Source: Salinisphaera japonica YTM-1
Lineage (GTDB): Bacteria; Pseudomonadota; Gammaproteobacteria; Nevskiales; Salinisphaeraceae
Assembly: GCF_003788585.1 (NCBI RefSeq)
Contig: NZ_AYKG01000012.1
Location: forward strand, 62,001-126,000
DNA length: 64,000 nt
Reading direction: 5' to 3'
The notes beneath the pieces are model-generated. The model had not been told where the DNA came from and did no database searches. It saw nothing but the letters and a program-made list of their open reading frames with translations. Shown piece by piece: positions 30,354-55,921 of this stretch; the first letter of the stretch is position 1, and every line of letters begins with the position of its first letter. A program made the translations under genes and the position numbers.

Positions 30354-30511
30354 GGCATGCCTCGTCGGTTTGACGTCGCGCTGGGCGCGGCGATGGGTTT
30401 TAAGACCGCCATGCTAGCAAAGCGCGCCCTTGCACGCTCGCGGTGCACCGAGCAGTGCACGCCAAGATGCCGTATCCTTTCGCGCGAAACCGCCCTGCCG
30501 AGCCTGCCGAC

Positions 30512-32529: not shown

Positions 32530-32620
32530 GCCTCTTGCGGCATACGGCGTTAGACTACTGTATTCGACACCGATCGCTGTCCCCGGCCTCGATCGTTTTT
32601 TCGCAGAGGACTTCACCGGC

Positions 32621-34906
32621 ATGAGCCATTCCCGCATCCCGCAGTTCTACAAGTTCTCGGTGGCCGATCGGCTGCGTGCCCTGCTCGAGCGCGAGGTCAT
32701 CAGCGAGATCGAATACGATGCGCTGATGGACGGCACCCATCTACTGGATGCTGATACCGCCGACCGGCTGATCGAGAACGTCATCGGCGCCTTTGGCCTG
32801 CCGATGGGCCTGGGGCTCAATTTTCAGATCAACGAGCGGGATTATCTGATCCCCATGGTCGTCGAAGAGCCCTCGATCATCGCCGCCGTGTCGTCGGCGG
32901 CCAAGCTGATCCGGCGCTCGGGCGGGTTTTCGTCGGTGGCCGAACGGCCGATGCTCATCGGCCAGATTCAGGTGGTCAACGTTCCGCACGCCGCCCATGC
33001 CAAGCAGGCCGTGCTGCATGCCAAGGAAGAGATCCTCAATCTGGCCAACAGCCTGCACCCGAACATGGTCGCCCGCGGCGGCGGCGCGCATGACGTCGAG
33101 GTCGTCACCCACGGGGCCACGGCCAACCACGGCGAAATGCTGGTGGTGCATCTGGTGGTCGATACGCGTGACGCCATGGGCGCGAATCTCGTCAACACCA
33201 TGTGTGAGGGCGCAGCCCCCCTGGTGGAAAAGATCACCGGCGGCGAAGTGTTCCTGCGGATTCTGTCGAACCTGACCGACCGGGCGCTGGTACGCGCGCG
33301 GGCCGTGATCGCGCCCGAGTCCCTGGCTACGGGCGATCGCGCGGGTACCGAAGTACGCGACTCGATCATCCTGGCCAACGAATTCGCCGAGATGGATCCT
33401 TATCGGGCCACGACCCATAACAAGGGCATCATGAACGGCATCGATGCCGTGGCGATCGCCACCGGCAACGATTGGCGGGCCATCGAGGCCGCTGCCCATG
33501 CCTATGCCGCGCGCACCGGGCGGTATCGCTCGTTGACCCGCTGGTTTGCCGACGCCGAGGGCAATCTCGTGGGCGAGCTGGAAATGCCGCTCAAGGTGGG
33601 CACGGTCGGCGGCCAGGTCGAGTCCAACCAGGCGGTCAAGATCGCCCATCGCGTATTGAACATCGCCTCGGCGGCCGAGCTGGCCGAGGTGATCTGTGCC
33701 GTGGGCCTGGCTCAGAACTTCGCGGCCATCAAGGCGCTGTCGACCGACGGCATTCAGCGCGGGCACATGACCCTGCACGCGCGCAGTGTGGCCATGGCCG
33801 CGGGGGCCACCGAGGCCAATTTCGACGATGTGGTCGACCGGCTGGTGGCCGGCGGTGATATCAAGGTCTGGAAAGCCCGCGAGATCATCGCCGAGCTGGA
33901 CGGTGAGCACCCGTCAAGCGACAAGGCGGCCCAGACACAGCCCAAGACCGATATCGTGGGCCACGGCGACGCCACGGGTGATTTCGGCTACGGCAAGATC
34001 ATCGTGCTGGGTGAGCATTCCGTGGTCTATGGCCGGCATGCCATTGCCGCCCCGATACCGCTGAACGTACGCGCCGAGGTTCGGCCACAGGATCAGGATA
34101 TCGATCTGTTGATTCCGCGCTGGGGCGTGGAAATGCGCTTTTCCGAGCCCGAGGGCAAGATCAGCTCGTTGCACGAATCGATCACGTTGATTGCCGAGCG
34201 CCTGGGTGTGGCCGATCGCGGCATGCGTATCGATGTGTTCCCACGGGTGCCGCGCGCCAACGGCCTGGGGGCATCGGCTGCCCTGGCCGTGGCCGTGATT
34301 CGGGCCATGGCGCGTGCGTTTTCAATCGAGATGTCCGATCGCGAGATTTCGAACCTGGCCTACGACGTCGAAAAGATCGCCCACGGCACCCCCAGCGGCA
34401 TCGACAACACGCTGGCCACCTTCGGCCGGCCGATTCTGTTCCGCAAGGACAACCCCCAGGCCCGCGCCGAGATTCGTGATCTGGCCACATCGCGCCCGAT
34501 CCCCGTGGTCATCGGCCTGTCCGGCGTGGCGACATTGACCGCCCAGACCGTGGGCAACGTGCGCGCGGCCTGGCAGAAGAACCCGGCCCGCTACGAAGCC
34601 ATCTTCGACCAGATTGATGGCCTGGCGCTGGCCGGCGTGGATGCCCTGGCCCGCGGCGATATCGCCGAGCTGGGGGACTTGATGAATATCGATCACGGCC
34701 TGCTCAACGCCCTGCAAGTCTCCTCCTGGGAGATCGAGGAACTGGTCGAGATCGCCCGCTCCAACGGCGCGCTGGGCGCCAAGCTCACCGGCGGCGGCGG
34801 CGGCGGCGCGATGATCGCGGTGGCCGAAAGCGATCGCGTCGAGGGCGTGGCTGCTGCCATGCGCGCAGCCGGCTACAATAGCTTCATTACGGAAATCCGC
34901 TCATGA
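32621..34906 (+). CDS. Bifunctional HMG-CoA reductase (class II) - mevalonate kinase fusion
   Basis: 761 aa in one uninterrupted frame. Residues 1-425 are a class II HMG-CoA reductase with its four catalytic residues: E83 (VVEEPSIIAA), K268 (THNKGIMNG), D284 (ATGNDWRAIE) and H382 (RGHMTLHARS), plus the nucleotide-binding DTRDAMGAN (181-189). A polar linker (about 427-453) leads to a complete mevalonate kinase, 455-761: YGKIIVLGEHSVVYG, PRANGLGASAALAVA (542-556) and LTGGGGGGAMIA. The two halves catalyse consecutive steps, HMG-CoA to mevalonate to mevalonate 5-phosphate. Class II reductases include degradative enzymes, but the context says biosynthesis. Its stop overlaps idi by ATGA. I know of HMGR-thiolase fusions (MvaE), but not of this one as a studied enzyme. 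Confidence 0.95.
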   Translation: MSHSRIPQFYKFSVADRLRALLEREVISEIEYDALMDGTHLLDADTADRLIENVIGAFGLPMGLGLNFQINERDYLIPMVVEEPSIIAAVSSAAKLIRRSGGFSSVAERPMLIGQIQVVNVPHAAHAKQAVLHAKEEILNLANSLHPNMVARGGGAHDVEVVTHGATANHGEMLVVHLVVDTRDAMGANLVNTMCEGAAPLVEKITGGEVFLRILSNLTDRALVRARAVIAPESLATGDRAGTEVRDSIILANEFAEMDPYRATTHNKGIMNGIDAVAIATGNDWRAIEAAAHAYAARTGRYRSLTRWFADAEGNLVGELEMPLKVGTVGGQVESNQAVKIAHRVLNIASAAELAEVICAVGLAQNFAAIKALSTDGIQRGHMTLHARSVAMAAGATEANFDDVVDRLVAGGDIKVWKAREIIAELDGEHPSSDKAAQTQPKTDIVGHGDATGDFGYGKIIVLGEHSVVYGRHAIAAPIPLNVRAEVRPQDQDIDLLIPRWGVEMRFSEPEGKISSLHESITLIAERLGVADRGMRIDVFPRVPRANGLGASAALAVAVIRAMARAFSIEMSDREISNLAYDVEKIAHGTPSGIDNTLATFGRPILFRKDNPQARAEIRDLATSRPIPVVIGLSGVATLTAQTVGNVRAAWQKNPARYEAIFDQIDGLALAGVDALARGDIAELGDLMNIDHGLLNALQVSSWEIEELVEIARSNGALGAKLTGGGGGGAMIAVAESDRVEGVAAAMRAAGYNSFITEIRS

Positions 34907-35505
34907 GTCATGCCATGAACGAATCAAGCGCCAGCGGCCAGGCCCGCATCGTGTCTTTCGACGACGAGCCGCTCATCCTGGTCGACGCCGACGACAACGT
35001 CATCGGCCATATGGAAAAAGCCCGGGCCCATGAGGGCGAAGGCGTACTGCACCGCGCGTTCTCTATCTTCCTGTTCAACAGCGATGGCCACGTGCTCATG
35101 CAGCAACGCGCGGCCGGCAAGCAGCTCTGGGGCGGGTTCTGGTCCAACAGCGTATGCAGCCATCCGCGCCGCGGCGAAACCGTGGCTGATGCCGCCCGGC
35201 GACGCCTGGAGGAAGAGATCGGTGTCGTGGCCGACGTGCATTATCTCTATACGTTCGAGTATCACGCCCAGTTCGGCGAGATCGGCGCCGAGCACGAGAT
35301 GTGCGCCGTGTTCTTTGCCCGGTCAGACATGGCCGTCACCGGCAACCCGACCGAGATCGCGGATTTCGCCTTCATGGCGCCCGAAACGCTGGACGACGCC
35401 CTCGCCACTGACCCGGAGCGCTATACCCCGTGGCTGAAGATGGAATGGCCACGTATTCGCGACGCCCACTGGGACGAAGTCACTGCCCCACCCCGGGCGG
35501 GCTGA
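34903..35505 (+). CDS. idi: Isopentenyl-diphosphate delta-isomerase, type I
   Basis: 200 aa, Nudix fold. Active-site features of type I IDI: the Cys in SNSVCSHPRRGE, the Nudix-like RRRLEEEIGV, the metal/proton-transfer Glu pair in IGAEHEMCAVF, and the C-terminal PWLKMEWPRIRD. It interconverts IPP and DMAPP, which a mevalonate-pathway organism needs because that pathway makes only IPP. Last gene of the mevalonate set, coupled by ATGA to the HMGR-kinase fusion, and followed by a strong terminator at 35525-35549. Confidence 0.95.
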   Translation: MSHAMNESSASGQARIVSFDDEPLILVDADDNVIGHMEKARAHEGEGVLHRAFSIFLFNSDGHVLMQQRAAGKQLWGGFWSNSVCSHPRRGETVADAARRRLEEEIGVVADVHYLYTFEYHAQFGEIGAEHEMCAVFFARSDMAVTGNPTEIADFAFMAPETLDDALATDPERYTPWLKMEWPRIRDAHWDEVTAPPRAG

Positions 35506-38001: not shown

Positions 38002-39150
38002 CTAGCTGATTTCTTTTTCCTTGCCCGCGTCGCTGGCGCTACGCCGCCCGATCGAGGAAATCGGGATACGCGTGGCCGTGGCCTGGGCACGATCGCCGTA
38101 GAGAATCGGCAGCTCTTCGGCGAAGTCGCCGGTCAGATCCGGGCCTTTCATCATGACCTTGAGCGCCTTCAGCGGGTGCTTGAAGGTGTCTTCGACGGCC
38201 GTGCCTTCGTAGCCACAGTGCGCCATGCAGTTGTCGCATTTCGGGTTGCGGCCCACGCCGTAGTTTTCCCACTGCGTGTTTTCCATCAAGCCCTTGTAGG
38301 TCTTCTCGTAACCTTCGTCGACGAGCAGATAGCACGGCTTCTGCCAGCCAAAGACGTTGTAGGTCACGTTCGACCAGGGCGTGCACTGGTAGGTTTCGTT
38401 GCCGGCCAGGAAGTTCAAAAACAGCGAGCTGTGGTTGAGCTTCCAGTCCGAGCCGCGCTCGCGGCCCTTGGCAAAGATGTCACGGAACAGGTTCTTGGCC
38501 TTCGAGCGGCCCAGGAACACGTCCTGACGCGGGGCATGCTCGTAGGAGTAGCCCGGCGAGACCATGATGCCTTCCACGCCCAGATCGGTGACGTAGTCGA
38601 AGAAGTCGGCGACCTCTTCCGGCACTTCGCCGTCGAACAGCGTGCAGTTGATGGTCACGCGGAAGCCGCGGTCGCGGGCCATTTCGATGGCCTCGACGGC
38701 TTTTTCGAACACGCCTTCCTGACAGACGGATTCATCGTGACGCTCTTTCAGACCGTCCAGATGCACCGACCACGTGAAGTAGGGCGACGGCTCGTAGTCG
38801 TCCATCTTCTTCTTCATGAGCAGGGCGTTGGTGCACAGATAGACAAACTTCTTGCGCGCCACGATGCCCTTGATGATCTCGGGCATGCCCTTGTGGATCA
38901 GCGGCTCGCCGCCGGGAATAGACACCATCGGCGCATCGCATTCGTCCACCGCGTTCAGAGCATCCTCAACGCTCATGCGTTGTTTCAGAATGTCCTTGGG
39001 GTGATCGATCTTGCCGCAGCCGGCACAGGCCAGATTGCACTGGAACAACGGCTCCAGCATCAGCACCAGCGGATAGCGTTCGACGCGGGCGAGCTTCTGT
39101 TTCATCAGATAGCTGGCCACACGGTACTGTTGAATCAGCGGTACGGACAT
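38002..39150 (-). CDS. hpnH: Adenosyl-hopene transferase HpnH, radical SAM
   Basis: 382 aa. The radical SAM cluster motif C-x3-C-x2-C is in FQCNLACAGCGK (C38, C42, C45), followed by GGEPLIH for SAM binding. The C-terminal region carries further conserved Cys (NPKCDNCMAHCGYEG). HpnH adds a 5'-deoxyadenosyl group to diploptene to make adenosylhopane, the first step of side-chain extension. HpnG, encoded at 51092-51832, then removes adenine. It lies just downstream of the AEP operon on the same strand, 124 bp after phnW. Confidence 0.96.
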   Translation of the reverse strand: MSVPLIQQYRVASYLMKQKLARVERYPLVLMLEPLFQCNLACAGCGKIDHPKDILKQRMSVEDALNAVDECDAPMVSIPGGEPLIHKGMPEIIKGIVARKKFVYLCTNALLMKKKMDDYEPSPYFTWSVHLDGLKERHDESVCQEGVFEKAVEAIEMARDRGFRVTINCTLFDGEVPEEVADFFDYVTDLGVEGIMVSPGYSYEHAPRQDVFLGRSKAKNLFRDIFAKGRERGSDWKLNHSSLFLNFLAGNETYQCTPWSNVTYNVFGWQKPCYLLVDEGYEKTYKGLMENTQWENYGVGRNPKCDNCMAHCGYEGTAVEDTFKHPLKALKVMMKGPDLTGDFAEELPILYGDRAQATATRIPISSIGRRSASDAGKEKEIS

Positions 39151-39274: not shown

Positions 39275-40348
39275 TCACGGCGCTATGATCTCGTCGAAGG
39301 CGGCAAGCAGTTCAGCCATGTCGCGCGTGTCCAGATCGCCCATGGTCGAAATACGAAAGATATCGTCGGCCAGCGCGCCCTGCCCGGCATAGATCACGAA
39401 CCCCGCCTGTTTCAAGTGATCGTGCAGCCGCGCGTAGGACACCCCCGACGGTAGCCTATAGCTGCGCAGCACACAGGAAACGGCTTCGCGGGCCACGATT
39501 TCGGTGATGCCGCGTGCAGCCAGGCCATCACCCACCTGATCGGCCAGGGCGCGGTAATGGGTGCGGCGTACCGGCCAGCCGCCGGCCTCGGCGTGTTCGG
39601 CGAGGGCAGCATCCAGCCCATAGAACGCCGGAATACCCGGCGTGAACGGCGTGCCGCGCTCGGCCTGCTTGGCCGCGTATCCGGCCAGATCCAGATACAG
39701 CGCCCGGGTGGTGGCGTCGGCCAGCGCGCTATGGCGCACGATGACGAATGCCGCCCCCGGCGCGCCGTGCAGGCATTTATTGGCCGTGGCGGCTACAGCG
39801 CTCACGGCCGGGGCGAACGCGATCGCCTCGGCGCCGAAGCTTGAGACCGCATCGACCAACAAGGCCACGCCGCGCGTCTCGCAGACTGCGGCAATCGCGG
39901 CGATATCGTTCAAACGCCCGGTGGTGGTTTCGTGATGCACCACGGCCACGTGCGTGGGCGCGTGCGCCTGAATCATCTTGGCCAGCTGTCGATCATCGAT
40001 CGCCTGGCCCCAGGCCAGATGCCACGCCACGTGCGCGATGCCGTGAACCTCGGCCATGCGCGTCATGCGCTCGCCGTAGACGCCGTTTTCGATCACCAGC
40101 AGCTTGTCATTGGGCCCGGGCAACGAGGCGATCATCGCTTCCACCGCCGACGTGCCCGAGCCGCTGATCAATACCGGCGCCCAGGTGGCGCCGTCGTTGT
40201 CATAGACCGCCAGCAGGCGGGCGCGAATCCGGTCCTGCATGTCGAAGAACTCGGGTTCGCGATGACACAGATCGGGCCCGGCAAGCGCGTCTCGCACGCG
40301 CGGGGTCAGCGTCACCGGGCCGGGATTGAGCAATCGCAGGCCGTTCAT
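39275..40348 (-). CDS. phnW: 2-aminoethylphosphonate--pyruvate transaminase
   Basis: 357 aa class V aminotransferase. It opens LRLLNPGPVTLTPRVRDAL with the CHREPEF stretch typical of PhnW. The PLP-binding Lys is in AATANKCLHGAPG, and HHETTTGRLNDI is also conserved. Next to PEP mutase and phosphonopyruvate decarboxylase it most likely runs in the biosynthetic direction, converting phosphonoacetaldehyde to AEP. A degradative role would need phnX (phosphonatase), which is absent here. Its start overlaps the decarboxylase stop (ATGA). Confidence 0.93.
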   Translation of the reverse strand: MNGLRLLNPGPVTLTPRVRDALAGPDLCHREPEFFDMQDRIRARLLAVYDNDGATWAPVLISGSGTSAVEAMIASLPGPNDKLLVIENGVYGERMTRMAEVHGIAHVAWHLAWGQAIDDRQLAKMIQAHAPTHVAVVHHETTTGRLNDIAAIAAVCETRGVALLVDAVSSFGAEAIAFAPAVSAVAATANKCLHGAPGAAFVIVRHSALADATTRALYLDLAGYAAKQAERGTPFTPGIPAFYGLDAALAEHAEAGGWPVRRTHYRALADQVGDGLAARGITEIVAREAVSCVLRSYRLPSGVSYARLHDHLKQAGFVIYAGQGALADDIFRISTMGDLDTRDMAELLAAFDEIIAP

Positions 40349-41508
40349 GGCGATACCGCGCCGATATGGGCCATCAGTCGGTCCTTGATCTCGACCGGCG
40401 AGGCCGCGGGCCGCGGCAGGCCGGCGGCGGCGATACCCGGCTCGATATGCAGATGCGCGAACGCCGGGCCCTGCGAGCTGCCGGCCAGCATCTGATCGAT
40501 GATCGTCCGATCGTGGCCTTCATGAACCGTGCGATAACCACAGGCGGCTGCGATGGCGCCGAACGACAGCCCGTCAGAGACCGTGGCCTGGCCGCCGGTG
40601 GACTCGTGCATGCCGTTATCCAGCAGCAGATGCGCCAGGTTGGTCGGCCCGTAGGCAGCCAGCGTGGCCATGGCCCCCAGACGCATGAGTGCCGCCCCGT
40701 CGCCGTCGATGACGATGATCTTCAGATCCGGCCGGGCCAGCGCCAGCCCCAGGCCCAGGGCCGGCGCGCAGCCCATCGAGCCGACCATGTAAAGATGATT
40801 GGCCCGATCGGCCAGGCCATAAAGCGCGCGCCCGGCATAGCCGGTCGAGGCAATGACGACCGTGTCAGTCTCGTCGGTGCGCGCCACGAGATGGCCCAGG
40901 GCATCGTCTCGCGTCAAAGCCGGCAGATCGGGACGACGGCGCGGCGCCGGCCGATAAGTGATCGCGCCGCGGCTCTGGCTGGGTGAGCCGGTCTCACACA
41001 GCGCGGCCGGCGCCACGGTGTCTTTTTTCATGATCAGACAGTACGGGCGGCCCGTGGCCTGCATATGCGCCTCGGCACGAGCAAGCGCCGGTTCGATAGC
41101 CTCTGCCTCATCGGGAAAGAATTCCCAGGGGATCTCCATCGTTGTCAGCATGTCGGTGGTGATCTGGCCCATCAGTTCATGCTGGGGCTCGTCGGCGACC
41201 TCCGGCGCACCGCGCCAGGTGACGATGAGCAGGATCGGCAGGCGAAAGACCCAGTTCAACGAGGTCAACGGGCTGACCGCGTTGCCCAGCCCCGAATTCT
41301 GCATCATGGCCACCGCGCGCTTGCCCGCCAGCGCCTGGCCGGCGGCGATGGCCACGGCATCGCCCTCATTGGCCGCCGAGATATAAGACAGCTCGTCGGC
41401 ATCGATCACGGTATTGATGAACGGTGTCAGAAACGAGCACGGCACGCCGGCATAGTGGCCGTAGCCGTAGGCCGCGGCGGCGTCGATGAAATCACGGGCT
41501 TGGATCAT
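40345..41508 (-). CDS. Phosphonopyruvate decarboxylase
   Basis: 387 aa TPP enzyme. The N-terminal pyrimidine-binding part has [11 protein letters not shown]-like residues and [15 protein letters not shown] with the catalytic Glu. The diphosphate-binding motif is [20 protein letters not shown]...NLAHLLLDN. It decarboxylates phosphonopyruvate to phosphonoacetaldehyde, which drives the unfavourable PEP mutase step. It overlaps both neighbours by 4 bp, so the three proteins are translated from one coupled message. Confidence 0.94.
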
Positions 41509-43154
41509 CGGTGGTCTCCGTAGGCAAAGGCCTGGGCCGCACGCAGATCGTCCAGATCGTTGACGTCCAGCCAGTGGCCGGTGATGTAAATGACGTTCAC
41601 ACGTCGTCCGGCGGCCAGCAAGGTATTGAGTAGATCGGGCACGCCGGCGGTTTCGAACCGGCCCTGGCCGCGTAGTGTCTCGAGTGCCTCGGCAATCCAG
41701 GCCCGGCCGATGCCGCGGCTGCGCATGATGCCGATCCAGCGCCCCTCCGGCGGGCGCGCCGGCGCATCGGTGGCCCCGACGTGTTCGAGGGTCACGCTTT
41801 GCGCGAACAACGAGCGATCATCGGCTGCGCTGCACCAGGCCGGATCACGCGCCGGGGCGCGGGTATCCCGCGGCTGGGAATCGACCACCACGGTGATCTC
41901 GTGATCGGTTTCCAGTAAATCCGTGAGTACGTGGCGCCGGAACAACAGATCGCCGTAGATGATCAGATTGTCATCGCCGAAATGGTCGCGGGCACAGTTC
42001 AGGGAGGCCAGCTCGCCGGTGGTTTCATAAGCCGGGTTCTCCACGATCTTCACGCCGGCCACATCGATCGTTTCCGCCCGGTAGCCGGCCACGGCCGTGA
42101 TGTCATGCAGCCCGTGCTGCTTGAAGACATCGACCAGATGCCTCAAGAGCGGCTTGCCGGCGACTTCCAGCATGGCCTTGGGCCGGCCTTCGGTCACCGA
42201 TTCCAGCCCCTCGCCGCGTGCGGCCGCCAGCACGAGTGCATGGGTGGCGGCACCGGCATCGCCGCCGTAGCGCTTCTCGGCTTCGCGCAGTTCGGGATCC
42301 CCCTGCAGTCGAAAGATCTCGGATACCGGGGCGATCCGATCCTCCACGCCGGTCAGCGTTTCGGTCTCGCGAATCTCGCGCACGGTGCGCTGCATGGCCG
42401 TGACCGCCGAGCGCACGGTGTGATTGGCCCAGATGACCAGGCTGATACCGGCCTTGCGAAAGACATCGGTCGGGGTGGAGTAATACTTCGTGGGCACGAT
42501 GACGAGCGGACAGGAGCCGTCCCAGGCCGCCGCAAAGCGCTGGATATTGTCGAAGCTGCGTGCCTTGTCGTGGATCAGGACCGCATCGGCCCCGGCCGCC
42601 TGATAGGCCTTGGCCCGATCCAGTGCCTCCTCGACCGACCAGCCGGCGATCAACGCTTCCACCCGGGCCACGATGCAGAAATCGGGATCCGCCTGGGCAT
42701 CCTTGCCGGCCCGGATCTTGCCGCAGAACTCATCGACATCGGCCAGAGGCTGGCGCTCGCCGTCGATGAAACTGTTGGTCTTGGGAAACAGCTTGTCCTC
42801 GATGCATACCCCGGCCACGCCGCGAGACTCGAGCTTGGTGACCAGCCGGCGCAGGTTGTTGAAGTTGCCATAGCCGGTATCGCCGTCCAGCAGAATCGGC
42901 ACCTCGGTGGCATCGGCCATGAACTCCACGGCTTCCAGCACCTGGGTCCAGCTCGCCTCGTTGGAATCGCGCACACCAAAAGCCGCCGACAGCGCCAGGC
43001 CCGACGCCCAGATACCGGCAAATCCGGCCTCCTCGACGATCCGCGCCGACAAACCGTTATGGGCTTCCATGATGAATTCGAGCTGGCCACTGTCCAGCAG
43101 CTGACGCAGGGCACGGGCTTTTGAGGGTCGCTTGGGCATGCGCGTTGTCGTCAT
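41505..43154 (-). CDS. Phosphoenolpyruvate mutase fused to a nucleotidylyltransferase domain
   Basis: 549 aa. Residues ~10-298 are a PEP mutase of the isocitrate-lyase superfamily with the diagnostic EDK-x5-NS motif ([10 protein letters not shown], 119-128) and [10 protein letters not shown] for Mg2+. Residues ~305-549 are a sugar-phosphate/choline-phosphate type nucleotidylyltransferase: [33 protein letters not shown], and the metal-binding [11 protein letters not shown] mutase makes the C-P bond. The second domain probably activates the downstream AEP with CTP to CMP-AEP, as PntC-type cytidylyltransferases do, but the nucleotide and substrate are inferred. First of three ATGA-coupled genes. 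Confidence 0.93.
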
Positions 43155-43167
43155 CGGTGGTCACCGG

Positions 43168-43929
43168 TCATGAGATTGCTTCAAGCGTGGGCAGGATGTC
43201 GTCCATGGCTCGGTCGACGTCGGCCGGATAATCGACCTCGATCCACGGCGTGCCGGCGATATCGATCGCCTGGAAGACTCCATCGCCCGCGGTCATCAAC
43301 GTCTGCAACGCCTGCTCGTGCGGCGCGTGGGAATCCGCGGCATGCGCCGTTTCGCAGGCCAGCAGCAGCCCGTCGGCGCTGGCCGGTGACAGCCGGAAGA
43401 AGCCCACGGACTCGCCCACGCGGTCATAGGTCAAATCGGCAGCCAGGGTCTTGTCGAAGGCAACGATTCGGGCATCGGCCAGGGCCACTTTTACGGCCTC
43501 GGCGTCGTCGGCGCCGACCCGCGTATCGATAGCCACGCGATCGGCTGCGCCCTCGCCCGTGAAAACAGCCATGAGGCGCGCGTCATAGAGCACGTCGGCG
43601 TCCATGAGCAGCACGTCGTCATCGGCCTCGAGCACATCGCGTGCTGCCAGTACCGAGGCCGTGCTGCCTTCTCTAAAGGCCGGGTTATGACGCGTATCCA
43701 CCGTCATTTCCGGGGCGATCTCGTGGACCATCGACGACAGCGCCTGTTCGATCTGCATGGCCTCGTTGCCCACCACCACGGTCAGACGATGCACGCCGGC
43801 CGTGTTCAGCAAACGGATATGACGTTCCAGCAGGCTCATTTCGCCAAACGGCAACAGGCATTTCGGCCCACCGCCGGTGATCTCTTCCAGGCGACGACCG
43901 ACCCCGGCCGCCAACAATACTGCGTGCAT
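43168..43929 (-). CDS. Stand-alone nucleotidylyltransferase (NTP transferase domain)
   Basis: 253 aa. The signature is MHAVLLAAGVGRRLEEITG...PKCLLPFGEMSLLERHI, with metal-binding Asp residues in VLLMDADVLYD and a final PWIEVDYPADVDRA. It has the short form of choline-phosphate or inositol-phosphate cytidylyltransferases, without a left-handed helix domain. It starts with a good aggag ribosome binding site 13 bp before the PEP mutase fusion gene. It may activate AEP or another alcohol phosphate for the CDP-alcohol phosphotransferase encoded at 47828-48463. The C-terminal domain of the PEP mutase protein is a candidate for the same job. Confidence 0.87.
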   Translation of the reverse strand: MHAVLLAAGVGRRLEEITGGGPKCLLPFGEMSLLERHIRLLNTAGVHRLTVVVGNEAMQIEQALSSMVHEIAPEMTVDTRHNPAFREGSTASVLAARDVLEADDDVLLMDADVLYDARLMAVFTGEGAADRVAIDTRVGADDAEAVKVALADARIVAFDKTLAADLTYDRVGESVGFFRLSPASADGLLLACETAHAADSHAPHEQALQTLMTAGDGVFQAIDIAGTPWIEVDYPADVDRAMDDILPTLEAIS

Positions 43930-47827: not shown

Positions 47828-48463
47828 TCAATAGCCCTTGCTGCGGCGGGCCCGCAGCGTGCGGAAATACCAGCCCAGCCACAGCGCGAACGCGGGGGCA
47901 CCGATGAAGGCCGCGATCAGAAACGGCTCGCGCACGCCAAAGAGTGTGACCAGCGGAAACAGATACAGCACGTCCTCGATCTCGAACCAGCCGGCCGAGG
48001 GCAGTTTGGCCCCGGCCTTGCCGAGCTCTTCCTCCATCATCATATGCCGCCAGAAGATGAACGCCACCGCCCCGCCGGCCACCAGCCCCATGACGGGCGC
48101 GGCCATGCCCAGAACCGTTTGCTCCAAACCCCAGCCGATCGCCACAAAAAGCAGCGTATGGATGATCGCATCACAGACCAGATCATAGACATGGCCGAAA
48201 CGGCTGGACGCACCCGTGATACGGGCCAGCTCGCCGTCGGTGTGGTCGACGAAGTTCGACAAAGCGAACACGAAAGCCCCGATATTGGCCACGGCCAGGC
48301 TTTCGTAAGATACACACCACGCTGCGATCAGCCCCAGGGCCAAACGCAGTGTCGTCAGATGGTTCGGCCGGGCCGCGGTGTCTTCGAGCGGCCGGACCAA
48401 CGCCCGGGCCAGCCGCGCATCCAGCGGGCGAGCCGTATCAGGTTGATCAACGTGCTCGGTCAT
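47828..48463 (-). CDS. CDP-alcohol phosphatidyltransferase family protein
   Basis: 211 aa integral membrane enzyme with about five or six helices. The family catalytic signature D-x2-D-G-x2-A-R-x8-G-x3-D-x3-D is intact (DHTDGELARIT, then GHVYDLVCD). These enzymes transfer the phosphoalcohol or phosphatidyl part of a CDP-substrate to a hydroxyl. It overlaps hpnN by 17 bp and abuts hpnA, so it belongs to the hopanoid operon. With a CMP-AEP route encoded nearby, it is the best candidate to move AEP onto a lipid alcohol, though phosphatidylinositol- or phosphatidylglycerol-type synthesis remains possible. Confidence 0.9.
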   Translation of the reverse strand: MTEHVDQPDTARPLDARLARALVRPLEDTAARPNHLTTLRLALGLIAAWCVSYESLAVANIGAFVFALSNFVDHTDGELARITGASSRFGHVYDLVCDAIIHTLLFVAIGWGLEQTVLGMAAPVMGLVAGGAVAFIFWRHMMMEEELGKAGAKLPSAGWFEIEDVLYLFPLVTLFGVREPFLIAAFIGAPAFALWLGWYFRTLRARRSKGY

Positions 48464-51095
48464 GCGGCCTCCTTTGATCGGGGCTGCGAATCGGAAAGAG
48501 CGCCGGCACCAGAATGAGCGTGGTGGCTAGAATAGCCAGCATACCGATGGTCAACAGCATCCCCATACTGGCCGTGCCGGCATGACGCGAGAACGCCAGG
48601 CTGCCGAAACCGGCCATCGTCGTGGCCGACGACAACAACACCGCACGCGCGGTGCTGGTGGCCAGAAACGCGCGATTACGCAGATCCCCGCGCAGGCGAT
48701 GCACCACATGGATACCGCTGTCCACGCCCACGCCAAGCAGCAACGGGAGCGCGATGACGTTGGCGAAATTGAACGGCAGACCGAACCAGACCGTCGCCGC
48801 GCTTAGAATCAGCCCAGACAAGATTAGCGGGGCCAGCACACGAAGCGTATCCGCAATACTGCGTAGCAGAATCATCAGGAACAGGCTGATGAATACGCCG
48901 GCATAGATGAAGGCCATCATGAAGGCATGCGATACCGTGGCCCCGGCAGACAGCTCCAGCACCGGTGCCCCCGTGATATCCGGGGCCACCTGTTGCACCG
49001 AGGCCACGAAATCGGCCATCGCGGCGTTGTCCGACAGATCGCCTTCGGGCGTGACCTCCACGCGATAGGTGCCCGAGCCGGTGGCCCAGCGCTGTTTCAG
49101 ATCGGCCGGCAGACCGTCCAGCGACACCGATGACGCTGACAACGAGCGCGACAGCTGATCGATCTGTCGCGGCAGGCCATCAAGAATCCGGTGGCGCAGA
49201 TCAGTGAGCACCCGGGCCTGGCGCTGGGCCGGCTGCTGCTCGAACCAGCTCTGCCAGGCCGCCAGCGTAGCCGCTAAGCGTTTGGCCGCCGGGCGTGAGT
49301 CGTCTTGTCGCTTGCGGTAATCAGCCAACGCCGCCGCAAAATCCGCCACGGCCGCGCGCTGGGCCGGCGTATCGGCGTGCTGGCGCATGTCCGGGGGCAT
49401 CAACGCCAGCGTGAGGGCCAGATCGCCGATGATAGCGAGCTTGTCGTCCTGATCGGTCGGCACATAGCTCTCGACCGTAATCGCCGAGGACACATGCGGC
49501 TGGTCGGCGATCCGCGCGGCCAGCGCGTTGGCCCCGGCCAGGGAATCACGCGTGGCGACCAGCGTGAGGGGCGAGCGATCACTGGTGGCCAGCAGATCGC
49601 GATAGGTCTTGACCGATTCGGCGTTCGGATTCTTCAGATCCAGCGCACTCGGATTGAACGACACGAACGGCAAGGCCGCCGCCGAGACAAGTGTGGCCGC
49701 GATCGCCACCGCCCAGATCACCCGCTGTGCACGCGGGCCGATGAACGGCGCCCGCGAGGCACGCCCGGCTGCAGTCGGCGTCCAGGGTTTGACCAGCGCG
49801 ATGGCTGCCGGCAGGAAGGTCAGGCTCACCAGCAGGCTGATGAACATTCCGGCCCCTGAAATCAGGCCCAGCTCACCCACCCCGGAATACGAGGTGGGCA
49901 GGAACGCGAAGAACCCGGCGGCGGTCGTCACCGCGCACAGGCCAAGCGAGACCCCGACGTCGCTGATCGCCGTGGCCAGCGCGGCCCGCACGCCGGCCGC
50001 GCGATCAGCCACACCGGCGCCCATTTCACCGAGCGCTTCGCGATAGCGCAGACAGACGTGAATGGCGTAATCGATACCCAGGCCGATATAGAGCACGGCA
50101 AACGCGATCGAGATCAGATTGAGCCGGCCGACCGCGAAGGCCGCGAAGGCCGCCGTACCGACCAGCCCGGCCAGCAGGCTGACCAGCGATACGCCCATCA
50201 AACGCCAGGAGCGCAGGCCGACATAAAGCAGGATCGCGACGATCGTGAGTGCCAGTGCCGCCCCCCAGGCCGCGCCCTGGGTCACGCTTTCCAGCTCCTC
50301 GTCGGAGAGCGCCACCTCGCCGGTCTGGCGCACGGTCACGCCGTGCGCGCTATCCAGATCCAGCCGAGCGGCGGCCGTGTCAACGGCCTTCATGGCCGGC
50401 TCGCCGGGCAACAGCCGGTTATAATCCAGCTTCGGCTTGGCGATGATGAAGCGCCGATCCGATACGCCCGGCTGATCGCCGCCGATAAGCTGTTGCCAGG
50501 ACAGCTGGCCGAAATCCTGCGCCCTGGACGCCGCAAAAACGCCGCTAAGCTCGTTGAAGACCGGCGACAGATTCAGATCCACCGGCGCATCGGGCGCCAT
50601 CGCCTGATCCAGCAGATCGAAGAACGTGACCAGCGTGGGATCGGTGGTCAGCCGGCCGAGAAACGGCTGGAGCCGGTTCAGACGATCCGACAGATCCGCC
50701 AATTCCGGCGTGTCCAGATAGAGCAAGCCGTTCTCGGCGAAAAACGCCCCACCGCCCGGCTCATAGATCGAGGCAAACAGATCCGGCTTGTCCCGCAGGG
50801 CATCGGCCAAGCGATCGGTGGCCGCGGCAGCCACGTCGGCATTGGCCCCGTCGACGACGATGACGAGATTGTCGGTATAGACCGGGAACGCGTCCTGATA
50901 GGCGATATAGGTCTGGCGCCAGTCCACGTCACGGCTGATCAGATCCGCGTCGTCGGTATCCATCGATAGATGGGTGGCGGCGTAGCCGCCGGCGAGTGTC
51001 GTGAGCACCAGGCCGAACAACACCACCCAGATCGCATGGCGTGTCATCAGATCGACCCACGCCGCCAGGCCCCGTGTCAGGCGCGAGCGGCTCAT
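48447..51095 (-). CDS. hpnN: Hopanoid-associated RND transporter HpnN
   Basis: 882 aa MMPL/RND-type protein with two repeats, each with a large periplasmic loop and a membrane block (about 250-450 and 710-870). Conserved stretches include FAVLYIGLGIDYAIHVCLRYREA in the first block and LPLLLGVGVDSGIHVVHRLRG in the second, with the intramembrane Asp pattern of the family. HpnN is needed to move hopanoids to the outer membrane in studied bacteria. It is coupled to hpnG by ATGA and overlaps the CDP-alcohol phosphotransferase by 17 bp. Confidence 0.94.
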   Translation of the reverse strand: MSRSRLTRGLAAWVDLMTRHAIWVVLFGLVLTTLAGGYAATHLSMDTDDADLISRDVDWRQTYIAYQDAFPVYTDNLVIVVDGANADVAAAATDRLADALRDKPDLFASIYEPGGGAFFAENGLLYLDTPELADLSDRLNRLQPFLGRLTTDPTLVTFFDLLDQAMAPDAPVDLNLSPVFNELSGVFAASRAQDFGQLSWQQLIGGDQPGVSDRRFIIAKPKLDYNRLLPGEPAMKAVDTAAARLDLDSAHGVTVRQTGEVALSDEELESVTQGAAWGAALALTIVAILLYVGLRSWRLMGVSLVSLLAGLVGTAAFAAFAVGRLNLISIAFAVLYIGLGIDYAIHVCLRYREALGEMGAGVADRAAGVRAALATAISDVGVSLGLCAVTTAAGFFAFLPTSYSGVGELGLISGAGMFISLLVSLTFLPAAIALVKPWTPTAAGRASRAPFIGPRAQRVIWAVAIAATLVSAAALPFVSFNPSALDLKNPNAESVKTYRDLLATSDRSPLTLVATRDSLAGANALAARIADQPHVSSAITVESYVPTDQDDKLAIIGDLALTLALMPPDMRQHADTPAQRAAVADFAAALADYRKRQDDSRPAAKRLAATLAAWQSWFEQQPAQRQARVLTDLRHRILDGLPRQIDQLSRSLSASSVSLDGLPADLKQRWATGSGTYRVEVTPEGDLSDNAAMADFVASVQQVAPDITGAPVLELSAGATVSHAFMMAFIYAGVFISLFLMILLRSIADTLRVLAPLILSGLILSAATVWFGLPFNFANVIALPLLLGVGVDSGIHVVHRLRGDLRNRAFLATSTARAVLLSSATTMAGFGSLAFSRHAGTASMGMLLTIGMLAILATTLILVPALFPIRSPDQRRPHDRAR

Positions 51096-51832
51096 GCGGG
51101 TGGCGTATCGGCCGGGGCATTGGCCAGCGCATCGGCCACACGCTCGAGCGTGATGCGTGCCGCGCGATAAGCCACGGCCAGCTGTTTCAGCCCGCGCAGC
51201 TGGTGATGCAGGGCCAGAGGCGCACGCACCAGGCTGCGCGCCAGGGCCACCGGCTGTAGGTGCCCGGCCTCATCCATGGCCACTCGCGCGGCGGCCGGCA
51301 GGCCGGTGTTGGCATCATCCAGCACCACACGTATGGCGACAAACGCCGCGCCGTGTTCGGCGGCCACGCGCGCGATGGCCGCACTTTCCATATCCAGAGC
51401 ATCGGCACCGGTGGCCGCATGCAGCGTGTGCTTGGCCGCGGGGTCGGCGATCACGTCGCGCGCCTCGGTGATCGTGACGCCCGGCGCGGCCAGACCCATC
51501 GGCAGAGACGCCGCGATCGCAGCCCGCCAGGTCTTGTCCACGGCCAGCAGCCGGCCATCGGCGCTGCGCACGCCATCGGCCAACAACAGATCACCCGCCG
51601 CCAGGCCCGGGGCCAGTGCCGCGGCCACGCCCCAACTGACCAGCGCGCTCGCCCCGTCGGCGATCGCGGCCCGAGCGGCCGCCTCGGCCCGCTCGGGCCC
51701 CATGCCGCCCAGGCGCACACGGCTGCCGTCGGGCCGGCGCGCCCGGCCGAGCGCGGGCAGGCGTGCCAGCGCCCGTGCCTCACCGGGCAGGGCCGCGATA
51801 TAAGCGATTTGGTCACACGCCGGGTGTGTCAT
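51092..51832 (-). CDS. hpnG: Hopanoid-associated phosphorylase HpnG
   Basis: About 246 aa from the ATG at 51832. A nucleoside-phosphorylase fold: IAYIAALPGEARAL at the start, VRLGGMGPERAEAAARAAI, and DALDMESAAIARVAAEHG in the active-site region. HpnG removes adenine from adenosylhopane to give (phospho)ribosylhopane, following HpnH. Its start overlaps the cyclase fusion stop by 4 bp and its stop overlaps hpnN by 4 bp. Confidence 0.93.
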   Translation of the reverse strand: MTHPACDQIAYIAALPGEARALARLPALGRARRPDGSRVRLGGMGPERAEAAARAAIADGASALVSWGVAAALAPGLAAGDLLLADGVRSADGRLLAVDKTWRAAIAASLPMGLAAPGVTITEARDVIADPAAKHTLHAATGADALDMESAAIARVAAEHGAAFVAIRVVLDDANTGLPAAARVAMDEAGHLQPVALARSLVRAPLALHHQLRGLKQLAVAYRAARITLERVADALANAPADTPPA

Positions 51833-54800
51833 GTGTCGTATTCGAGCGGCTCGCTGACCGGCGAGGCCACGCCCGCCCGGCTGTTGCGATAGCGCGCCAG
51901 CGCCCACATCGGGAAATAATGCGTATAGCCGTGATACTTGAGATAGAACACGCGCGGGAAGCCCGGCGCGGTGTGTTCCGGGTCATGCCAGGCGCCGTCC
52001 TCGCCCTGGGCTGCGATCAGCCAGGCCGCGCCGCGTGCCAGGGCCCGGCTGTCGCGCTCCCCGGCGGCCATCAGGGCCAGCATGGCCCAGGCGGTCTGAA
52101 AGCTGGTCGCGATATCGGCGCGCCCACGCGGCGGGTTCCAGTAGCTGCCCTGATCCTCGCCCCAGCTGCCATCGGCGCGCTGCATGCCCTTGATATAAGC
52201 CACGCCGCGCTGGATCCAGTCCTGGCGCATGTCCTCGCCGAGCGTTTCGGCGGCCGTCAGGACCGACCAGGTGCCATAGATATAGTTGGTGCCCCAACGC
52301 CCGAACCAGGAGCCATCGGCCTCCTGCTCGCGCTTGATATAAGCCAGCGCGCGGCGAATGAACGGCCCGTCCTGGGCCCGGCGCAGGCGCCCGGCCAGAG
52401 CCAGCACGCGCGCGGTCACGTCGGCCGTGGGCGGATCCAGCAGTGCGCCGTGGTCGGCAAACGGTATGGCGTTGAGATATTCGTGGTTGTTGTCGGAGTC
52501 GAACGCCGCGATGCCGCCGTTTTTCGACTGCATGCCGATCAGCCAGTCGATGGCGCGGGTGATCGCCCGGCCATAGGTGGCGTGATCGCCGGTGTTGTAC
52601 ATGGCCCAGGCCACCGCGGCCGTGTCGTCCAGATCGGGATAATGATCGTTGGCGTACTGGAAAGGCCAGCCACCGCCGGGCAGATCGGGATGGAAATCGC
52701 GCCAGTCGCCCGGCCCGTCACAGACTTGGCGCGCGGCCAGCCAGTCCAGCCCGGCGCGTACGGCCGGGGTATCGCCGGTGGCCGCGGCTTCCTGCAGGGC
52801 CAGCCCGCCCAGACAGGTATCCCAGACCGGCGAGACACAGGGCTGGACGTTGGCCGCGTCCCCGTGGTCGAAAATCAGATCGTCGATGGCCTTGCGGGTA
52901 TCGGCCCGGTACGGATGATCGGCGGCATAACCCAGCTCGCCGAGCGCCTCGTAGACATTGACCATCGCCGGGAAGATCGCGCCGATGCCGTCGGTGCCGT
53001 TCAGGCGTTCGATGATCCAGGTCTCAGCTTTCTTGATCGCTCGCCGGCGAATGAACTGCGGGATCAGGGGCTCGAAACTGCGCCCGACGGCGTCCAGGCC
53101 CTTGAAGAAATGCTGGAGCGGCGAGTCCACCGGCACGAAATCGCGTTGTTGCTCGGGCGGCACGGTGAACAGCTCGCGCACGTTGACCCCGGCCGGGTTC
53201 TTGGCCATCACGCGCAGGCTGGTCAGGATGAACAACGGCACCATCACCGTGCGCGACCAGTAGGACACCTTGCTCAGGTGGAACGGCGAGGCTTCGGGCA
53301 TGAGCATCACCTCCACCGGGATGAAGGGCACCGCACGCCAGGGCACCTGGCCGAACTGGGCCAGCGCGATCAACGTGAAGACATTGACGTTGCCGGCCCC
53401 GCCGCGGGCACGAATCGCTTCGCGCGCATGCACCATGTGGGGCGCGTCCACGTCGTCGCCGGCCAGCTTGAGCGCGTAATAGCTCTTCACCGAGGCCGAC
53501 TGATCCAGATCGCCGCCGTAATAGAGCGGCCAGCCGCCGTGGGCAGCCTGCTTGGCGCGAATGAAGCGGGCGATACGGGCCTGCAGTGCCTGATCCACAT
53601 CGCCGATGAAGTGCATCATCAGGATATATTCGGACGGAATGGTGCAATCGGCCTCGCACTCGTAGCACCAGTGCCCGTCGGGCTTCTGGTCGGCGTGCAG
53701 CCGTGCAACCGCGGCGCCGATCGCCTCTTCCAGGCCGGGCGGGGCCTCGGCCTGCAATGTCTCGTTGGCCGGCAGCTCCACCAGATCGTTGATCGGCGCG
53801 CCGGGATCCGCGGCCACCTTGGGCGTGAGCGCGGGCAGATCCGCAGCCGTCATATGAAACAGATGCCGCAGGCGATCATCATCGGAGACGGCCAGGTTGG
53901 TCGTGAGCACCGTGGCCTGCACGCTGCGCCGTGAGACTTTCACCTGGCGCGAATCGGTGAAACGCGGGTTGTTCTGGATCTTGCGCAGCGTCAATAGCGC
54001 CAGGCCGATCGCCCACAGGCAGAACCGACGAATACCCTTCTGGTGGCCGGGAATCGTCAACGTGTACTCGAGCGCGTTGCGCAGATGCCCATGCGCCAGG
54101 CCGATCAGCTCGGACAGGCCGGCCGCAAAGGCCGGATCCGAACTGCCGCCGGCGGTCAGCGTGGACAGATCGAAACCGTGGCGGGCAAACACATCGCGCG
54201 GCAGCCAGCACACGCCGCGCCCCCGGTCGGTCCAGATATCCTTGAGGATATTGGTCATCTGCAGCCCTTGCCCGAACGACACCGCCAAACGATTGAGCTC
54301 GGCGTCGTGTTCGCCCATGCCCGGCTCGTAGTCGGTGAACAGCGTGGTGAGCATCTCGCCCACGACACCGGCCACGAAATAACAGTAGCGGTCCAGATGC
54401 ACGAGCGTGGGCAGGCCGTCTACCGTGGCCGCCCCTTCGTATTCGGGCATGCCGTCGCACATGATGCGCACACAGCGCGCCACGGCCTGCTGACGCGTGG
54501 CCCCCAACCCCTGGGTGACGGTCATCACCTCATCGGTGTTTTCGACCAGGCGGCGTTCTTCAGCCAGCGTTTCGTCACACAGCAGCGGGGCCAGGCGGGC
54601 GCCGAAATCGCTCGCGCCCTGCCCGGTTTCGACCACGGCCACGAAGGCGGCATGCCAGGCGGCCTTGTCGGCCCGCCCCATCTCGGCGTCGTCTTCGATC
54701 GTGTCCGCGATGCGACACAACAGATACGCATTGCCGATGGCCACCCGCAGCGGCTCGGGCAGCTCGGGAATGGTCAGGGCAAACGTGCGCGACACGCTCG

Positions 54801-54867
54801 GCAGGATCTCGTCCTGAAAGGCCAACGCCCGGCGAGCCGAATGCGTCTGAAGAGGTGCTTGTGACAT
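51829..54867 (-). CDS. Bifunctional squalene synthase - squalene-hopene cyclase fusion
   Basis: About 1012 aa from the ATG at 54867 (a longer start at 54960 is in frame). Residues 1-345 are a squalene synthase of the FDFT1-like kind: SVSRTFALTIPEL, the first Asp motif DTIEDD (55-60), HLDRYCYFVAGVVGEML (158-174), the second motif DIWTD (210-214) and GVCWLPRDVFARHG. Residues ~376-1010 are a complete squalene-hopene cyclase: catalytic YPDLDDTA with the general-acid Asp (745-748), QW-type repeats (DGSWFGRWG, DGSWGEDQGSYW) and the C-terminal YLKYHGYTHYFP. One polypeptide should therefore turn FPP into squalene and then hopene/hopanol. No hpnC, hpnD or hpnE is present in the window. I know of no characterised enzyme with this architecture. 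Confidence 0.95.
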   Translation of the reverse strand: MSQAPLQTHSARRALAFQDEILPSVSRTFALTIPELPEPLRVAIGNAYLLCRIADTIEDDAEMGRADKAAWHAAFVAVVETGQGASDFGARLAPLLCDETLAEERRLVENTDEVMTVTQGLGATRQQAVARCVRIMCDGMPEYEGAATVDGLPTLVHLDRYCYFVAGVVGEMLTTLFTDYEPGMGEHDAELNRLAVSFGQGLQMTNILKDIWTDRGRGVCWLPRDVFARHGFDLSTLTAGGSSDPAFAAGLSELIGLAHGHLRNALEYTLTIPGHQKGIRRFCLWAIGLALLTLRKIQNNPRFTDSRQVKVSRRSVQATVLTTNLAVSDDDRLRHLFHMTAADLPALTPKVAADPGAPINDLVELPANETLQAEAPPGLEEAIGAAVARLHADQKPDGHWCYECEADCTIPSEYILMMHFIGDVDQALQARIARFIRAKQAAHGGWPLYYGGDLDQSASVKSYYALKLAGDDVDAPHMVHAREAIRARGGAGNVNVFTLIALAQFGQVPWRAVPFIPVEVMLMPEASPFHLSKVSYWSRTVMVPLFILTSLRVMAKNPAGVNVRELFTVPPEQQRDFVPVDSPLQHFFKGLDAVGRSFEPLIPQFIRRRAIKKAETWIIERLNGTDGIGAIFPAMVNVYEALGELGYAADHPYRADTRKAIDDLIFDHGDAANVQPCVSPVWDTCLGGLALQEAAATGDTPAVRAGLDWLAARQVCDGPGDWRDFHPDLPGGGWPFQYANDHYPDLDDTAAVAWAMYNTGDHATYGRAITRAIDWLIGMQSKNGGIAAFDSDNNHEYLNAIPFADHGALLDPPTADVTARVLALAGRLRRAQDGPFIRRALAYIKREQEADGSWFGRWGTNYIYGTWSVLTAAETLGEDMRQDWIQRGVAYIKGMQRADGSWGEDQGSYWNPPRGRADIATSFQTAWAMLALMAAGERDSRALARGAAWLIAAQGEDGAWHDPEHTAPGFPRVFYLKYHGYTHYFPMWALARYRNSRAGVASPVSEPLEYDT

Positions 54868-55030: not shown

Positions 55031-55921
55031 ATGGAACCCAATCAAGCGACGCATTATAGCCAACGCATCGAGCACGTGCTTGCTGCCTGCCTGCCGACCG
55101 ACGATCGCGCGCCAGCGCGCCTGCATGAAGCCATGCGCTACGGCGCGCTCTCACCGGGCAAACGGGTGCGTCCGCGCCTGGTCTATGCCACGGCCACGGC
55201 CCTGGGTGTGCCGTTATCTCGTGTCGACGGGGCCGCGGCCGCCATCGAGCTGATCCATGCCTACTCGCTGATCCACGACGACCTGCCCGCCATGGACGAC
55301 GACGATCTGCGCCGCGGCCGGCCCACCACGCATAAAGCCTTTGATGACGCCACGGCGATTCTGGCCGGTGATGCCCTGCAATCGCTGGCGTTTGAAATCG
55401 TGGCCACGCACGGTGGTCTGGATGATCGCCCCGCCGCTCGTGTGGCCGTCATGCGCTGTCTGGCCGCGGCGGTGGGCTCGCGCGGCATGGTCGGCGGCCA
55501 GGCCCTGGATATGGCCAGTGAGGCACGGACCGATGTGACCCTCGAGGATCTGGAAACCATCCATAACCTCAAGACCGGCGCTCTGCTCTCGGCCTGCGTG
55601 ATGATGGCGGCCTCGGCGGCCGATGATCTGTCAGCCGATGTCATCGACTGCCTGGAGATCTTCGCCCAGCGGATCGGCCTGGCCTTTCAGGTTCGTGACG
55701 ACGTGCTGGACATCGAGGCCACCACCGAGCAGCTGGGCAAGCAACAAGGCGCCGATCTGGCCCACGACAAGGCCACCTACCCGGCGCTGATGGGCCTTGC
55801 CGAGGCCAAGGCCTTCGCCGACCGGCTCTACACCGAAGCCACCGCCGCTCTTGACGTTCTAGGCGCACCGGCCGACGACCTGCGCGCCCTGGCCGCGGAG
55901 ATCGTCAAACGCGATCACTGA
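55031..55921 (+). CDS. ispA: Farnesyl diphosphate synthase
   Basis: 296 aa. First Asp-rich motif IHDDLPAMDDDDLRRGRPT (82-100) and second DDVLD (223-227); GGQALDMASE is also typical of IspA-type short-chain synthases. It condenses DMAPP with two IPP to FPP, supplying the squalene synthase half of the divergently encoded fusion protein. The 163-bp gap between the two starts probably holds both promoters. Confidence 0.94.
   Translation: MEPNQATHYSQRIEHVLAACLPTDDRAPARLHEAMRYGALSPGKRVRPRLVYATATALGVPLSRVDGAAAAIELIHAYSLIHDDLPAMDDDDLRRGRPTTHKAFDDATAILAGDALQSLAFEIVATHGGLDDRPAARVAVMRCLAAAVGSRGMVGGQALDMASEARTDVTLEDLETIHNLKTGALLSACVMMAASAADDLSADVIDCLEIFAQRIGLAFQVRDDVLDIEATTEQLGKQQGADLAHDKATYPALMGLAEAKAFADRLYTEATAALDVLGAPADDLRALAAEIVKRDH

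Follow-up and report, generated by a model that had tools for sequence, protein, structure and literature searches.

The fused gene and its domain architecture

We analysed a 64,000-nucleotide stretch of the genome of Salinisphaera japonica YTM-1, a salt-loving bacterium (contig NZ_AYKG01000012.1, positions 62,001 to 126,000; hereafter the window), which carries a gene joining a squalene synthase (SQS) domain to a squalene-hopene cyclase (SHC) domain. The reading frame lies on the minus strand and runs uninterrupted over 1012 codons, from an ATG at position 54867 to a stop codon at 51831-51829. The features placed on it are the following, with residue numbers referring to the encoded protein.

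51829-54867, minus strand: SQS-SHC fused gene, 1012 amino acids (open frame and translation, Pfam, NCBIfam; the frame is also open in 12 other genomes)
53926-54801, minus strand: SQS domain (SQS_PSY, residues 23-314; Pfam E 1.6e-57; fold match to trypanosomal and human SQS, Z 33-36)
53743-53832, minus strand: interdomain linker, residues 346-375 (sequence comparison; more variable than either domain; predicted local distance difference test score, pLDDT, below 50 at residues 364-371)
51883-53718, minus strand: SHC domain (SQHop_cyclase N and C, residues 384-995; Pfam; TIGR01507; fold match to 1sqc, Z 45.6)
54688-54705, minus strand: first Asp motif DTIEDD, residues 55-60, aligned to human SQS D80-D84
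54226-54240, minus strand: second Asp motif DIWTD, residues 210-214, aligned to human SQS D219-D223
53929-53940, minus strand: KVSR segment, residues 310-313, at the K315-R317 loop of human SQS (lysine kept; R317 replaced by serine, with an arginine adjacent)
52624-52635, minus strand: DXDD motif (DLDD), residues 745-748, aligned to Alicyclobacillus acidocaldarius SHC D374-D377

Both domains were recognised far beyond chance. The N-terminal half scored 195.7 bits with SQS_PSY (PF00494, gathering cut-off 26), which places it in this superfamily. The C-terminal half matched SQHop_cyclase_N at residues 384-668 (E 3.2e-113) and SQHop_cyclase_C at residues 678-995 (E 6.9e-129), and reached 759.6 bits with the squalene-hopene cyclase model TIGR01507, above the curated cut-off of 431.1. 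An initial annotation of this DNA had described one frame encoding an SQS followed by a complete SHC. The open frame and the Pfam matches confirm this observation, to which the strand is now added, and the positions it gave for DTIEDD, DIWTD and DLDD were all correct. Its interpretation, that the two activities are consecutive and lead from farnesyl diphosphate (FPP) to squalene and on to hopene, the core of the bacterial sterol-like lipids, is supported as judged from the families.

The S. japonica assembly comprises 3.26 Mb and is 99.93% complete. In this assembly the fused gene was the sole match to its own sequence and the sole SHC match, and a profile search of the genome recovered it as the sole SQS_PSY match. 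With only one SQS_PSY gene in a near-complete genome, HpnC and HpnD are therefore absent. The hpnC/hpnD/hpnE route had been reported missing from the window; for HpnC and HpnD this now extends to the whole genome, while HpnE was not searched for separately.

Catalytic residues

Alignment of the N-terminal half with human SQS indicated that S51, R52, R77, D80, D84, Y171, N215, D219, D223, F288, C289 and K315 of the human enzyme are kept. The signature positions correspond here to D55-D59, D210-D214, Y161, F282 and K310, the residues expected of a squalene synthase; we take them to be, respectively, the two Asp motifs, the catalytic tyrosine, the second-step phenylalanine and the lysine of the NADPH loop, which is presumably formed by K315-R317 in the human protein. 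Across 15 aligned bacterial SQS sequences, some fused and some separate, the consensus of this loop was VKVSR. In the C-terminal half, D374, D376, D377, W169, W312, F365, W489, F601, F605, Y609 and Y612 of A. acidocaldarius SHC are kept as D745, D747, D748, W537, W682, F736, W858, F970, F974, Y978 and Y981, as expected of a squalene-hopene cyclase. Here we assume that DXDD is the acid motif and that the aromatic residues line the pocket. By these alignments, the protein has most of the residues that the two activities are expected to need.

Fused and separate forms across relatives

We surveyed 85 genomes of the order and 17 of the family; Salinisphaera and Nevskia are placed in two orders in the NCBI taxonomy and in one order in the genome set used. 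A match was found in 32 of the 85 order genomes: 13 carried the fused gene, 16 had separate adjacent genes, one gave a weak partial match only, and two, counted as neither fused nor separate, were left unclassed because the genes lay at contig ends (G059) or on different contigs with a divergent SHC (G075). The fusions were distributed over Salinisphaera (eight), a second genus of the family (two), genus g20 (one) and the Nevskia-like g13 (two); an unfused member of g13, L113, is labelled Nevskia sp. Within the family, 10 of the 17 genomes had the fusion and the other 7 had no SHC match, every family genome with SHC thus being fused. The joined frame stayed open even where identity had fallen to 52% for the SQS part and 56% for the SHC part.

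If an assembly or sequencing error had removed the stop between two genes, relatives with separate adjacent genes would be expected, and these do exist, as does one other genus in which the two share a frame but are divided by a stop. However, the open frame is shared by 13 separate assemblies, one of which is a single contig of 4,141,708 bases. It is therefore not a local sequencing error, and this recurrence rules out an assembly artefact, to which we attach a negligible probability.

The survey was extended to more distant genomes. Among the best 80 of at least 554 SQS relatives in named genomes, 3 loci were fused, 32 were followed immediately by SHC on the same strand, and the remaining 45 had no SHC in the stretch examined, some of these stretches being short. 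The three fused loci (L002, L003 and L007) belong to the genus Salinisphaera, two carrying the label Salinisphaera and one that of 'Lysobacterales bacterium'. Of 369 genomes drawn from the class, 67 matched at E 1e-60 or better, S. japonica included; besides its own gene, two matches covered both domains, both of them interrupted by an in-frame TGA. Of 398 genomes drawn from the phylum, 46 matched at 1e-150 (S. japonica again included), and one match, in G758, spanned residues 153-1005 with an internal TGA. At most two best candidates were scored per genome in these two draws, so that a rare fusion could escape. In the order of G289 (57 genomes), eight matches at 1e-265 extended across both domains; every junction was read and every one contained a stop.

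In many Gammaproteobacteria, such as Dyella and metagenome-assembled genomes of Methylococcales, SQS and SHC are separate, adjacent and in the same order, which makes loss of the stop between neighbours the most likely route to the fusion. Relatives with two separate genes, which the initial annotation had listed as evidence against a genuine fusion, thus do occur at greater distance (the adjacent pairs in 16 of 85 order genomes), but they leave the fusion standing and point to the adjacent gene pair as the likely ancestral state. In the gammaproteobacterial genus g204 (eight genomes, L122 and L179-L185, among the 57 surveyed in its order), the two genes share a frame and are set apart by a short gap with one stop, or two in L179. 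Removal of a stop from such an arrangement would yield a fusion; it comes close to a one-step precursor.

Predicted structure and linker

An AlphaFold2 model of the full chain had a mean pLDDT of 88 and a predicted template modelling score (pTM) of 0.71. The linker region (residues 341-378) was 90% identical to the S. japonica sequence in L002, its nearest relative, and 37-63% identical in the other eight fusions of the family, whose domains were 67-93% identical. In the three fusions outside the family the identity was 13-26%, the alignment of such a variable stretch being rough. Linker identity thus drops faster than that of the domains, a pattern more in keeping with a flexible tether than with a rigid, conserved interface. 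The linker is also short, and the model predicts it to be flexible. The two g13 fusions (L114 and L116) have linkers 47-49 residues longer than that of S. japonica. These long linkers have in common a motif of about 30-40 residues, GGWSP...LA.AGA..AF...NR.EFRG, which was not seen in the unfused L113.

The linker also bears on whether two proteins are made, through an internal start or through cleavage. Start-like codons (ATG, GTG or TTG) are found inside it in 11 of the 13 fusions, as such a mode of expression would have it. L005 and L009, however, have no start-like codon in the linker, and among the in-linker starts only one ATG, in L011, has an upstream Shine-Dalgarno-like match. A further ATG, immediately ahead of the linker (residue 339 in S. 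japonica) and present in 9 of the 10 family members, lacks such a match as well. We consider the production of two proteins very unlikely.

Number of fusion events

Trees of the concatenated domains were computed in a quick run with 58 rows and in a careful run with 35 rows and 200 bootstrap trees. Four changes between the fused and the separate state were found, all of them forced by starred branches in both trees (bootstrap 5-95% range 4-4). In topology tests that all shared several rows and outgroups with long branches, a single clade of all 13 fusions was rejected (approximately unbiased (AU) test, p 5.3e-28), as was a group of all fusions except L114 and L116 (p-AU 7.7e-5). A clade of L114 and L116 excluding L113 was also rejected (p-AU 1.1e-4), despite the visible common motif in their linkers. 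That the 13 fusions do not form one clade and that four changes are forced implies at least three fusion events. These trees are most simply explained by three fusions and a single subsequent split, or else by four fusions. The count is firmer than the sequence of gains and losses, because the root was not inferred and several outgroup branches are long.

Proposed function

We propose that the gene encodes a single bifunctional hopanoid enzyme, converting two FPP and NADPH to squalene and then to hopene, and that it arose at least three times from adjacent genes. We put the probability of this reading at roughly 0.88. The joined frame, its domains and motifs, its single copy, its recurrence and its repeated origin come from the analysis itself; both activities, the roles of the neighbouring genes, the position at the membrane and the benefit are inferred. 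The N-terminal half would join two FPP into presqualene diphosphate and reduce this intermediate with NADPH to squalene. The C-terminal half would then use the DXDD aspartate to protonate squalene and would cyclise it to hopene. The chain itself would derive from two neighbouring genes of the same order, probably through stop loss, on each of the occasions in this gammaproteobacterial order.

Several results weigh against this proposal. The SQS half scored 107.2 bits with the squalene synthase equivalog model TIGR01559, whose cut-off is 286.75. Although this was its top-scoring NCBIfam model, the half is therefore named SQS-like by likely function and not as a member of that model. It also fell below the cut-offs of HpnD (TIGR03465, 76.6 against 278.6) and HpnC (TIGR03464, 36.2 against 250.45). 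R317, F286 and Q283 of human SQS are replaced by serine, arginine and lysine, and H451 and Y420 of A. acidocaldarius SHC by arginine and phenylalanine. At a pTM of 0.71, the relative placement of the two domains is not fixed by the model. Finally, the g13 group can be explained equally well by two fusions or by one fusion that was later split in L113.

The score below the TIGR01559 cut-off and the three replaced SQS residues would also suit an N-terminal half that is not a full squalene synthase and either halts at presqualene diphosphate or yields dehydrosqualene. Against this, the equivalents of F288, C289 and K315 are kept together with the VKVSR segment, and the genome has no other SQS_PSY gene to complete squalene. 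Moreover, dehydrosqualene synthases of the CrtM type gave fold matches of only Z 27, compared with 33-36 for squalene synthases (35.9 for the Trypanosoma cruzi enzyme, TcSQS). A partial synthase thus appears improbable, and a complete squalene synthase activity remains our preferred assignment.

How squalene would pass from one half of a bifunctional enzyme to the other is a separate matter. The fusion may be a by-product of stop loss, the halves being active independently and squalene being released to the membrane without channelling. The short, variable and predictedly flexible linker is consistent with this, no conserved interface came to light, and the two genes were in all likelihood an adjacent pair ancestrally. 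On the other hand, the fusion is found in all 10 SHC-bearing genomes of the family's 17 and has at least three origins, which hints at some advantage, although dosage alone could explain it. We lean slightly towards such independent halves, which compete with channelling and not with bifunctionality. A putative handover of squalene between the two active sites at the membrane, synthase to cyclase, with little free squalene building up, would make the fusion a convergent one-enzyme route from FPP to a pentacyclic triterpene; we regard such channelling as possible but less likely than not. For the bifunctional enzyme as proposed, the benefit may lie in a 1:1 dosage of the two activities and in squalene being made where it is used.

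Genomic context

The neighbouring genes of the window include the following.

51092-51832, minus strand: hpnG-like gene (TIGR03468, E 8.4e-47; 159.5 bits against a cut-off of 187.1, scored on the longer frame 51092-51907)
48447-51095, minus strand: hpnN hopanoid transporter-like gene (TIGR03480, 916.4 bits against a cut-off of 751.85; a second model, NF052374, under its cut-off)
38002-39150, minus strand: hpnH adenosyl-hopene transferase (TIGR03470, 548 bits, above cut-off)
55031-55921, plus strand: farnesyl diphosphate synthase, divergent, upstream (NF045485, 337.2 bits against a cut-off of 275)
28836-35505: mevalonate genes (3-hydroxy-3-methylglutaryl-CoA (HMG-CoA) synthase-like, diphosphomevalonate decarboxylase, phosphomevalonate kinase-like, a fusion of HMG-CoA reductase (HMGR) and a kinase, type 1 isopentenyl diphosphate isomerase)

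The ATG of the hpnG-like gene overlaps the stop of the fused gene (ATGA), and the hpnN and hpnG-like genes overlap by 4 bases. HpnH gave a single above-cut-off match in the genome, the one inside the window. The window also holds hpnM and an hpnB-like gene (377.8 bits, slightly under the cut-off of 379.25). The mevalonate set is apparently complete, its HMG-CoA synthase-like and phosphomevalonate kinase-like members scoring under their cut-offs. With hopanoid genes, an FPP synthase and mevalonate genes nearby, the fused gene therefore lies in a hopanoid cluster beside the precursor supply. The divergent FPP synthase would provide the substrate, and HpnH, the HpnG-like protein and HpnN would extend the product and export it.

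The mevalonate genes include another fusion of successive steps (32621-34906, plus strand, 761 amino acids), joining HMGR (residues 1-387) to mevalonate kinase (residues 458-733). It had matches in 36 of the 85 order genomes, 33 of them uninterrupted over near-full length and some in genomes without SHC; a brief literature search found no paper on it. All seven family genomes without SHC carry this HMGR-mevalonate kinase fusion, which points to a loss or gain of hopanoid synthesis inside the family. Phosphonate genes lie amid the hopanoid cluster (39275-43929, minus strand), encoding a 2-aminoethylphosphonate aminotransferase, a phosphonopyruvate decarboxylase, a phosphoenolpyruvate mutase-MobA-like nucleotidyltransferase and a second nucleotidyltransferase. 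Together with a CDP-alcohol phosphatidyltransferase gene at 47828-48463, they perhaps direct the synthesis of a phosphonolipid.

Comparison with known systems

Each half of the protein is of a known kind, and the joined chain seems undescribed as far as the open literature shows: no paper describing a natural SQS-SHC fusion was found among titles and abstract openings, most subscription journals lying outside the search. InterPro may list the architecture automatically. If the proposed activities are correct, the protein would be a ready-made FPP-to-hopene enzyme and a handle for testing the channelling of insoluble squalene. With at least three apparent origins of the same fusion, and unfused relatives alongside, its cause and benefit could be compared. 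Surveys that search for HpnC, HpnD and HpnE, or for a stand-alone squalene synthase gene, could misinterpret such genomes.

The SHC half resembles A. acidocaldarius SHC (1sqc; TIGR01507) in fold, in DXDD and in most aromatic pocket residues, with 36% identity over 615 residues; that enzyme stands alone, whereas the Salinisphaera cyclase is the C-terminal half of a longer chain. The SQS half has the fold of the human (1ezf) and T. cruzi (3wca) enzymes, with the Z values given above, together with both Asp motifs and the equivalents of Y171, F288 and K315, at only about 24% identity. Eukaryotic SQS carries a C-terminal membrane anchor; in Salinisphaera the anchor has no counterpart and the cyclase follows instead. 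A related arrangement is that of the separate SQS and SHC genes of other bacteria, such as Dyella and Methylococcales, which encode the same two proteins in the same order and on the same strand at about 48-62% identity, but as two genes with a stop between them.

In Alphaproteobacteria three separate enzymes, HpnC, HpnD and HpnE, make squalene from FPP alongside SHC (PMC12583986, PMC6439483). That route likewise supplies SHC with squalene from FPP, but in Salinisphaera, as noted, two of its three enzymes are absent and the third, HpnE, was outside the search. The nearest published idea that we met is that of the fungal chimeric prenyltransferase-terpene cyclases TvTS and MpMS, which make triterpenes via hexaprenyl diphosphate and for which channelling by proximity is discussed (PMC9177416). 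These proteins, like the Salinisphaera fusion, carry consecutive terpene steps in one chain. They differ in being class I enzymes that use no squalene, in having a different cyclase and, judging by the residue numbers, in placing the cyclase domain first.

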